A DNA stretch of 21,353 nt from IMG/VR virus record IMGVR_UViG_3300009104_000141, positions 1 through 21,353 of that record, one strand, 5' to 3'. The notes beneath the pieces were generated by a model. That model made no database searches. It was not told the origin of the DNA and saw only the letters and a program-made list of their open reading frames with translations. The translations under genes were made by a program, and so were the position numbers. The stretch comes from a virus. Numbering within the stretch: the stretch's first letter is position 1; the number at the start of each line of letters is the position of its first letter. Shown piece by piece: positions 8,870 to 10,574 of the stretch.

Positions 8870-8929
8870 CTTCTAGAATCGCTCTGAGAATCACCTTGAG
8901 AATCACCTTGAGAATCACCTTGAGAATTA
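8870..8929 (-). repeat. five 12-bp tandem iterons (GATTCT type)
   Basis: Five head-to-tail 12-mers. On the minus strand these are TAATTCTCAAGG, TGATTCTCAAGG twice, TGATTCTCAGAG and CGATTCTAGAAG. The last contains TTCTAGAA, a perfect 8-bp palindrome. Two more units with the same period lie at 6555-6578. The array lies in a 265-nt gene-free stretch before unit B. Binding sites for the HTH protein or for a replication initiator are the main candidates. Confidence 0.8.
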
Positions 8930-8950
8930 CCAGGTTTGGGTTTCCGGGAT

Positions 8951-8996: not shown

Positions 8997-9212
8997 TCAC
9001 TTCTTGGCACACGAAGAGCAAACGGATGCAGAGACGTAGTAAGGCTCCCAAGCCCACTCAGGGATTTCCTCAACTGGCCTGTCGTCTCTGGCCCAGATAG
9101 TGCTACTGCCCATCTTAATTCGCTTGGTGCCGTACTGGTCACCCTTGGCGATGGACGCCTTACACCTCTGGCACGTTCGGCTCTTCATGGACCGTCTTGT
9201 TTTGACGGCCAT
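8997..9212 (-). CDS. small zinc-finger protein
   Basis: A 71-residue basic protein with CQRC at 14-17 and CSSC at 66-69, a pattern suggesting one treble-clef or zinc-ribbon site closed by the two ends. KGDQYGTKRIKM and the acidic/aromatic PEWAWEPYYVSASVC lie between. Phages carry many such small zinc proteins; binding of nucleic acid or host RNA polymerase is possible but not shown. The ATG has a perfect AGGAGG about 9 nt upstream and the CAACGCCAGA leader motif. It lies directly downstream of hammerhead ribozyme 1, so its messenger should carry a new 5' end at 9254 after cleavage. Confidence 0.8.
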   Translation of the reverse strand: MAVKTRRSMKSRTCQRCKASIAKGDQYGTKRIKMGSSTIWARDDRPVEEIPEWAWEPYYVSASVCSSCAKK

Positions 9213-9244: not shown

Positions 9245-9269
9245 AAAAAACCCTGACGCCCCCTCAGGG
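9245..9269 (-). terminator. alternative terminator hairpin inside hammerhead 1
   Basis: On the minus strand CCCTGA (9264-9269) is a perfect complement of TCAGGG (9251-9256) across a seven-base loop, followed at once by TTTTTT (9245-9250). This is a textbook intrinsic terminator shape. It uses bases of stem III, the cleavage triplet and stem I, so it cannot coexist with the active ribozyme. Confidence 0.6.
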
Positions 9270-9301
9270 GCGTTTCGTCCTTGCGGACTCATCAGAGGGC
9301 T
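9249..9301 (-). ncRNA. hammerhead ribozyme 1 (type I, self-cleaving)
   Basis: Minus-strand RNA, 5' to 3': stem I strand AGCCCU, core CUGAUGA, stem II GUCC/GGAC with GCAA loop, core GAAA, stem III CGCCCC/GGGGCG with UGAG loop, U16.1 and C17 (cleavage triplet GUC), then stem I strand AGGGUU. All invariant core bases are present and A15.1-U16.1 can form. Stem I has six pairs including one G-U. Cleavage should fall between 9255 and 9254. Stem I is open, so this is type I. The outer stem I bases overlap the stop codon of the 43-residue gene. An alternative fold uses CCCUGA and UCAGGG as a terminator stem directly before six U residues. Confidence 0.93.
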
Positions 9302-9431
9302 AGCGGTTCCTCCTACGGTTGCGAGCGGACTTTATAACCACTTCACACAAGCCGAACAGCAACAGCAACAGCCAGACCAAGACGCCCAAAACTAGGACTA
9401 ATTCTAGGTCTTGGTTATAAGGTCCATTCAT
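9300..9431 (-). CDS. 43-aa single-span membrane protein
   Basis: A 43-residue frame. A short polar N-terminus (MNGPYNQD) is followed by a highly hydrophobic segment, LELVLVLGVLVWLLLLLFGL (about 9-28). It ends in a strongly basic tail (KSARNRRRNR). The positive C-terminus predicts an outside N-terminus and a cytoplasmic tail. It starts with an ATGA overlap on the stop of the conserved 85-residue gene and has no ribosome site of its own, so translational coupling is expected. Its TAG lies in the outer base pairs of hammerhead 1. I do not recognise a family; holin-like or toxin-like activity would be speculation. Confidence 0.65.
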   Translation of the reverse strand: MNGPYNQDLELVLVLGVLVWLLLLLFGLCEVVIKSARNRRRNR

Positions 9432-9685
9432 GCTACTGAGAACGCTCCAGAGAACTCCCCAATTGGTCCCCGATAAAGGACGCGATTAGCCCCTGCACCA
9501 TGCCAAGGGATCATAGAGACTACCACCCAATCCTCTTTCACTCCGTCGGAGCGTTCTTCTTGGTACGCCTCGCACCGCACCGCCCCCGACCAAGACGCAC
9601 AAACCGTCGTCACTCCTGAATCCTTGCTACCGCATCTCGTCGCCTGTCCTCTGTTGCCCTGTAGCGTGCCGTAAAAGTGTGCCAT
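9428..9685 (-). CDS. conserved phage protein of unknown function (MAHFYGTLQG type)
   Basis: An 85-residue protein. The opening MAHFYGTLQGNRGQATRCG, then SGVTTVCASWSGAVR, and the late PWHGAGANRVLYRGPIG match a small protein I recall from many phages and mobile elements, with no known function. It looks like a compact beta-rich fold. The gene lies just after hammerhead 2, so its message should begin at 9724 after cleavage, giving a leader of about 39 nt with the CAACGCCAGA-like motif and AAAGGAAAGAAG before the ATG. The next gene overlaps its stop. Confidence 0.85.
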   Translation of the reverse strand: MAHFYGTLQGNRGQATRCGSKDSGVTTVCASWSGAVRCEAYQEERSDGVKEDWVVVSMIPWHGAGANRVLYRGPIGEFSGAFSVA

Positions 9686-9717
9686 TGTCTTCTTTCCTTT
9701 TCTGGCGTTTGTAGTGA

Positions 9718-9773
9718 ACCAACAGACGAGGCCGTAGCCTCGTTTCGTCCTCTTAGGACTCGTCAGTGTTGGT
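9718..9773 (-). ncRNA. hammerhead ribozyme 2 (type I, self-cleaving), overlapping a coding 3' end
   Basis: Minus-strand RNA, 5' to 3': stem I ACCAACA, core CUGACGA, stem II GUCC/GGAC with loop UAAGA, core GAAA, stem III CGAGGC/GCCUCG with UACG loop, U16.1 and C17 (triplet GUC), then UGUUGGU. Stem I (7 bp), stem II (4 bp) and stem III (6 bp) are all perfect. Cleavage should fall between 9725 and 9724. The last codons (Asn-Thr-Asp-Glu-Ser) and UAA of the 273-residue gene lie in stem I, core and stem II, with UAA in loop II. Ribosomes finishing that gene must therefore unfold it. Stems I and III differ from ribozyme 1 but remain paired, strong evidence of a maintained structure. Confidence 0.95.
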
Positions 9774-10574
9774 GACGGTAACCTGCACGTTCACGCCTTG
9801 GAAGTTGAAGGTCTTGGGGCTTCTGGAATCTTCCCAACTAAAGTCACAAGAGGCTTCCAACTTCTCTTGGAGTTCCTCATCTGAGTAGTATCCATCACAG
9901 GAACGGCAGAGGCTGACGCCCAACTGTTCGCCCATGCTTCTGGCGTCTTCATTGGCTCCGCAGAGACGGCAGGATAGGGTGGCGGTCTGGATGCCGTTGG
10001 AGTTGTTTTGTAAGGCTTCCTGATAACCTCTGATAACGTCCTCAGCGTTCCTGAGTTCTGTACTCAACTCGTCAACGGTGGCGTTGCGTTTGTCTACCAA
10101 GTCTCTTAGGTGGGCCATCTGGGCTGTTCGGTCGTGTATGTCCTGACTCAACTCAACCGCCCTGTCTCTGAGTCTTGAGATCTCTTTTCCTTGCCTCTCA
10201 CACTCTGCCCGATACCAATCGGAGGTGGCTCTGTAGTTCTTGGCTTTTGTCCTGTCGGTGGTCCAGTGGACCTCATCCAAATTGGTTGGATAGAGGGAAT
10301 AGTGCGAAGCGTGATCCATCGGCAGGTCTTGGTCAAAACCTCTTGGACCGCCCCAACGGCTATGCTCTACTGCAAGTTCTGCCCTCTTGCCTCTGCCTCT
10401 CTTTTTCCAGTTGAGGTTTGGGGCAAACTTCTTTAGAAGGGCCATAAACAGTTGGCCCTCGTCATCGTTAGGAACGCCCTTGAATAAGGCTCCCTCTGGG
10501 CCGTCCCATGTGACCTTAGTTGGCGTGTCTACTTTGGGGTTAAGAATGTCTAGGGCTTTGGTAAATATGCTCAT
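9753..10574 (-). CDS. coiled-coil zinc-binding hypothetical protein
   Basis: A 273-residue protein. The N-terminal region (about 20-105) has an unusual WDGPEGALFKGVPNDDEGQLF then RWGGPRGFDQDLPMDHASHY, not recognised. A long coiled coil follows (about 120-190). A zinc-ribbon-like pair is formed by CRLC (202-205) and CRSC (223-226). The tail is beta-like and ends TNTDES. ATG at 10574 lies two nt after the stop of the methyltransferase-like gene with GGAG about 12 nt upstream; the longer frame to 10733 runs inside that gene. The final codons are part of hammerhead 2. A structural or nucleic-acid-binding role is possible. Confidence 0.78.
   Translation of the reverse strand: MSIFTKALDILNPKVDTPTKVTWDGPEGALFKGVPNDDEGQLFMALLKKFAPNLNWKKRGRGKRAELAVEHSRWGGPRGFDQDLPMDHASHYSLYPTNLDEVHWTTDRTKAKNYRATSDWYRAECERQGKEISRLRDRAVELSQDIHDRTAQMAHLRDLVDKRNATVDELSTELRNAEDVIRGYQEALQNNSNGIQTATLSCRLCGANEDARSMGEQLGVSLCRSCDGYYSDEELQEKLEASCDFSWEDSRSPKTFNFQGVNVQVTVTNTDES

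Follow-up and report, generated by a model that had tools for sequence, protein, structure and literature searches.

The locus described here raises the question of why a phage gene should end inside a self-cleaving ribozyme, and whether such an overlap reflects coupling between translation and RNA cleavage or the close packing of neighbouring elements. The window, i.e. the whole stretch of DNA analysed, is a virus contig of 21,353 bases, assigned to an SU10-like phage by its portal and capsid proteins; the nearest capsids are 45-50% identical and belong to spring-water phages and the Methylophilales phage Venkman. The original prediction placed a type I hammerhead on the minus strand, with the end of an upstream gene encoded within it, and regarded this coding overlap as the unusual part of the locus.

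A type I hammerhead at the end of a 273-codon gene

The features of the first ribozyme and the gene preceding it are as follows:

9717..9773, minus strand, hammerhead A, type I with stem I open, recognized by sequence, Rfam, fold and a phage model
9724..9725, minus strand, predicted cut of hammerhead A, falling between 9725 (C17) and 9724, the type I consensus position
9753..10574, minus strand, upstream gene of 273 aa with no assigned function, the only open frame of three, GC3 0.61
9753..9755, minus strand, TAA ending the 273-codon gene, at +11 relative to the core C and so within loop II of hammerhead A

Read from 9773 to 9717, the minus strand carries ACCAACA CUGACGA GUCC UAAGA GGAC GAAA CGAGGC UACG GCCUCG UC UGUUGGU. 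Stem I (ACCAACA/UGUUGGU) comprises 7 bp, stem II (GUCC/GGAC) 4 bp with a possible fifth U-A pair and the loop UAAGA, and stem III (CGAGGC/GCCUCG) 6 bp and the core A-U pair, with the loop UACG. The three stems surround the core, stems II and III being capped and stem I open, and the sequence also has the CUGANGA and GAAA core strings of the type I family together with its UH dinucleotide at the cleavage site. Judged by its sequence, the minus strand of the window at 9717-9773 holds a complete type I hammerhead; the stem lengths of 7, 4 and 6 bp, both core strings and the GUC triplet that had been claimed for it were all confirmed. As the GUC occupies 9727-9725, the cut is predicted between 9725 and 9724, in agreement with the site proposed originally, which follows from the consensus position. 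The minimum-energy fold of 9717-9773 is the hammerhead itself (folding z-score -4.6). On visual inspection, no base-paired contact was evident between loop II, with the sequence UAAGA, and stem I, a plain helix of 7 bp.

Searched against the whole Rfam library, hammerhead A received 28.7 bits (E 0.002) from Hammerhead_1 (RF00163). This falls short of the model's gathering score, 34 bits, which is a cut-off set by curators and not a structural feature. The original prediction had taken a score below threshold as grounds for rejection and, read literally, hammerhead A fails on this point (28.7 versus 34 bits). A phage covariance model, trained on 37 hammerheads from other contigs with the window excluded, gave 48.9 bits (E 9e-17). 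The window has two occurrences of the core pattern where shuffled sequence would give 0.03, and a strict hammerhead descriptor yielded no match in 536 kb of shuffled phage DNA. Pairing was complete in an alignment of hammerheads (A1), which is not independent proof because its rows were picked by a descriptor that demands pairing. A snoR113 match in the Rfam search (E 0.62) was dismissed as chance.

The final codons and TAA of the 273-codon gene lie within hammerhead A, as originally described, with the TAA at 9755-9753 in loop II. The protein ends in VTNTDES, and the residues TNTDES are encoded by stem I, the core and stem II. Near the C terminus is a CxxC...CxxC stretch resembling a zinc ribbon. 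The protein had no match in Pfam or PHROG; a 36-residue segment matches two viral contigs. No homologue of the C-terminal part was found in viral contigs. No phage record matched the gene or the hammerhead A region, and no homologous locus carrying the same ribozyme was found among viral contigs or phage records.

A second hammerhead and the organization of the minus strand

Hammerhead A is followed on the same strand by these features:

9701..9709, minus strand, AACGCCAGA leader motif, ahead of the 85-aa gene
9428..9685, minus strand, downstream gene of 85 aa, start 39 nt past the hammerhead A cleavage site
9300..9431, minus strand, ORF for a 43-aa protein with a single membrane span, sharing ATGA with the 85-aa gene
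9248..9301, minus strand, hammerhead B, also type I, loop II of the GNRA type (GCAA), with T6 following
8997..9212, minus strand, gene of 71 aa, two CxxC motifs, beginning 42 nt past the hammerhead B cleavage site, two viral relatives

Hammerhead B was missed by the original prediction and was recovered by the Rfam search, the core-pattern scan and the phage covariance model (51.8 bits, E 7e-18). Hammerheads on the same transcribed strand thus flank the 85-aa and 43-aa genes. Each ribozyme contains or touches the stop codon of the preceding gene; the 43-aa ORF stops with a TAG at -7 relative to hammerhead B, and the final two bases of this codon fall within stem I. The next start codons, 39 nt (A) and 42 nt (B) after the cleavage sites, are within the typical range of 20-50 nt. 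With two hammerheads on one minus-strand transcript, the RNA is predicted to be cut into gene blocks. The 85-aa protein matches PHROG 5927 over residues 1-33 (E 2.7e-9) and has six viral relatives; no hammerhead was found with the relatives of the 85-aa or the 71-aa gene.

The motif AACGCCAGA recurs at 9236-9228 and 8756-8748 on the minus strand, ahead of the next two gene starts. Three successive start codons thus have it upstream, its first base 24-25 nt away, and two of these copies are in leaders that hammerhead cleavage would form. Positions 9273-9248 of hammerhead B (stem III, or the region from stem III to stem I, then TTTTTT) score as an intrinsic terminator, and hammerhead B might therefore also end transcription. 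A tandem 12-bp repeat, AGAATCACCTTG, lies at 8875-8934, in the interval separating the 71-aa gene from the minus-strand gene that follows.

Stop codons at phage-type hammerheads

The position of the upstream stop was scored in 246 distinct hammerheads, nearly all from contigs other than the window, drawn from the matches listed by two pattern scans of viral contigs, one scan of genome contigs and a strict-descriptor screen, with near duplicates removed. The stop was defined as the end of the longest upstream open frame of at least 60 codons and counted from the core C; gene ends are consequently those of open frames, of which some in GC-rich loci are likely to be spurious. Among the matches listed, 173 of 246 (70%) had the stop between -16 and +14, compared with 6.6% at random positions and 12.2% at CTGANGAG strings outside ribozymes. 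A second set, differing in stem II and collected once the first had revealed the pattern, gave a similar proportion (72 of 97 listed matches), as did bacterial genome contigs (nine of 13 listed).

The stop lay inside the ribozyme in 86 of the 246 listed hammerheads, about one third, and the overlap that the original prediction had singled out as unusual is therefore a recurrent one. In this same set the stops formed peaks at -9 to -7 (n=55), where they abut stem I, at -3 (n=24), at +1 (n=38), where the stop is the UGA of the core itself, and at +11 to +14 in loop II (n=14 including the window; at least one of the loop-II stops, in the GC-rich locus L025, looks spurious). Start codons peaked 20-50 nt 3' of the cleavage site among the listed hammerheads.

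Homologous gene pairs were found that keep the ribozyme while the stop shifts, between +1 and -3 (70% identity), +11 and -3 (76%), and -3 and -9. The +1 position was retained in L075, L112 and L118 at 71-87% identity. Many homologues of genes adjoining hammerheads have no ribozyme. Stop triplets occur in loop II of ~35% of the listed ribozymes, irrespective of the frame in which the gene is read; a stop cassette serving three frames was considered and rejected on this ground. Stops in stem I were enriched only in the frame used by the genes, which is partly a matter of construction. Together the results for loop II and stem I leave selection for stops in all frames unsupported.

Comparison with cultured phages and known systems

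An annotated gene that ends in loop II is also present in a cultured phage, which again removes the overlap of the window from the exceptional. In the Methylophilales phage MEP301 (MW452941), a hammerhead between gp02 and gp03 has the TAA of gp02 inside loop II, at +12 rather than +11 and in a different gene and frame; the next start is 32 nt past the cleavage site, and no ribozyme is annotated in that part of the record. Annotated gp051 of Cellulophaga phage phi19:3 (KC821608) likewise ends inside a hammerhead, with the next start 34 nt after cleavage, but its TAA is at -3, at the end of the 5' arm of stem I. When the ribozyme-encoded C termini were checked as possible extensions, no homologues of MEP301 gp02 or phi19:3 gp051 were found in the phage collection. 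Annotated gp050 of phi18:3 has its stop at -16 of a hammerhead core and Pseudomonas phage tf_06 has a stop at -7; in OLIVR1, SCYZ1 and RiverRider no annotated gene ends that near the core.

Clustered hammerheads of prophages cleave in vitro and in E. coli, and processing of long phage transcripts has been proposed for them (Perreault et al., 2011; PMC3088659). Like those of the window they have type I cores and stems, occur several to a transcript and flank single genes or short blocks (PMC3088659). The window differs in coming from an uncharacterized SU10-like phage, and the overlap with stop codons is unmentioned in the main text of that study, where the term 'stop codon' has no occurrence (PMC3088659). 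The theta ribozymes of gut phages are, like hammerhead A, small, self-cleaving and common in phage transcripts; unlike it they have an HDV-like fold, lie mostly beside tRNAs and are expected outside coding regions (PMC10879173).

Hammerhead A is thus an added case of a known ribozyme family in a known setting. The window is a clean example of a widespread and little-studied arrangement and not a unique oddity, with at least hundreds of related phage ribozymes at gene ends. A 2017 review (PMC6155905) described the role of prokaryotic hammerheads as an open question, and no report of a rule placing hammerheads at or inside stop codons was found in the open-licence literature.

Probable RNA punctuation between closely packed genes

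The observed structure, positions, recurrence and layout of the hammerheads are, in our view, probably best explained if A and B act as cis-cleaving RNA punctuation in a single minus-strand operon of an SU10-like phage, the overlap of gene and ribozyme arising from packing without spacers. The order of stop, ribozyme, short leader and start is that expected of a device which cuts between genes, as proposed for the prophage clusters (PMC3088659), and the regularity of a stop at or in the ribozyme and a start 20-50 nt after the cut points the same way. Hammerheads A and B would fold during transcription, each cutting the mRNA just past a gene, and we infer that both are cleaved in the cell. From the chemistry of the hammerhead, cleavage would leave a 2',3'-cyclic phosphate on the folded 3' end of the upstream product, and the downstream product would begin with a 5'-OH. 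The upstream mRNA would accordingly be freed with a compact fold directly after its stop codon, which may affect its stability or protect it from decay, and the downstream mRNA would carry a short 5'-OH leader of ~40 nt bearing the ribosome-binding site.

The ribozyme itself could provide the stops, through the core UGA in one frame and, for the other frames, often through a UAA or UGA located where stem I ends or in loop II. The 273-codon gene would then run into hammerhead A as a result of the spacer-free packing of phage genes and ribozymes. As the stops slide while the ribozyme is kept, and loop-II stops are not enriched by frame, packing is the simplest account of the overlap; the same observations argue against a tuned device with its stop in loop II. 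The many homologues that have no ribozyme are likewise consistent with packing. Since some homologous groups keep their stop position, packing is the better account and not a proven one.

Translation and cleavage

A second reading, put forward in the original prediction, is that termination within or beside the ribozyme leaves stem I and the core beneath the ribosome, so that only untranslated RNA is cut. The footprint of a terminating ribosome is such that stops at about -16 to +14 put part of the hammerhead under the ribosome, and 70% of the listed upstream stops are in this range. A ribosome at the TAA at 9755 would cover the 5' arm of stem I, the core and stem II, making blockage of hammerhead A plausible, and antagonism between translation and its cleavage is likewise plausible. 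However, packing alone predicts the same range of stops, the stop slides among homologues and loop-II stops are not in excess in genes using that frame, and we regard such a gate as unlikely. A broader proposal holds that being built onto stop codons is a property of the whole class of phage hammerheads, one that would couple termination physically to self-cleavage and let the last ribosome time the cut. This appears equally doubtful; if true, hammerhead A with its loop-II stop would be an extreme form. The regularity of stops and starts makes coupling directly testable, for example in the cultured phages MEP301 and phi19:3.

Translation might instead assist cleavage, if the coding flank and the leader formed a competing fold which disables hammerhead A and is dissolved by ribosomes. 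The predicted probability of the hammerhead fold falls from ~0.3 to 0.001 once the flanks are added, and only 3% of shuffled flanks are equally unfavourable. When 40 nt upstream and 20 nt downstream are included, the competing fold, a CGUCA/UGACG hairpin with UGAAC/GUUCA pairing, beats hammerhead A by ~4.5 kcal/mol under nearest-neighbour rules, which ignore core stacking. Ribosomes could therefore favour hammerhead A, and antagonism is only one of two possible directions. Nevertheless the effect is absent for hammerhead B, hammerhead A is at the 86th percentile of natural hammerheads and so no outlier, and the energy model leaves out the tertiary core; we consider assistance by translation improbable. 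Least likely of all is that hammerhead A is a decayed or non-functional relic with a mere resemblance, as its score under the RF00163 cut-off and the failure to find the same ribozyme at a homologous locus in viral contigs or phage records might suggest, for every core position and stem is intact and one operon holds two copies, which the phage model scores at 48.9 bits (A) and 51.8 bits (B).

Further hammerheads in the scanned contigs

At least 28 contigs carry three or more hammerheads (e.g. L078, L199 and L262), and L043, L115 and L262 have one-strand arrays of eight type I hammerheads amid small genes. In the multi-hammerhead contigs listed, the stem I sequence is kept between copies in one phage (77% identity versus 38% between phages), whereas stems II and III vary within a phage nearly as much as between phages (61% versus 51-52%). 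After the predicted cleavage, the 3' arm of stem I forms the 5' end of each downstream mRNA. Hammerhead-pattern matches were also present in genome bins of Saccharibacteria and other Patescibacteria (L249, L253, L255, L266, L271, L275 and others), which may represent prophages or host genes. Likely type II hammerheads were seen at 2100-2170 of L133, 3985-4060 of L132 and 2225-2300 of L287; these belong to the Streptomyces phages R4 and phiRKBJ001 and the Faecalibacterium phage FP_Mushu, and each begins 0-16 nt past an annotated stop.
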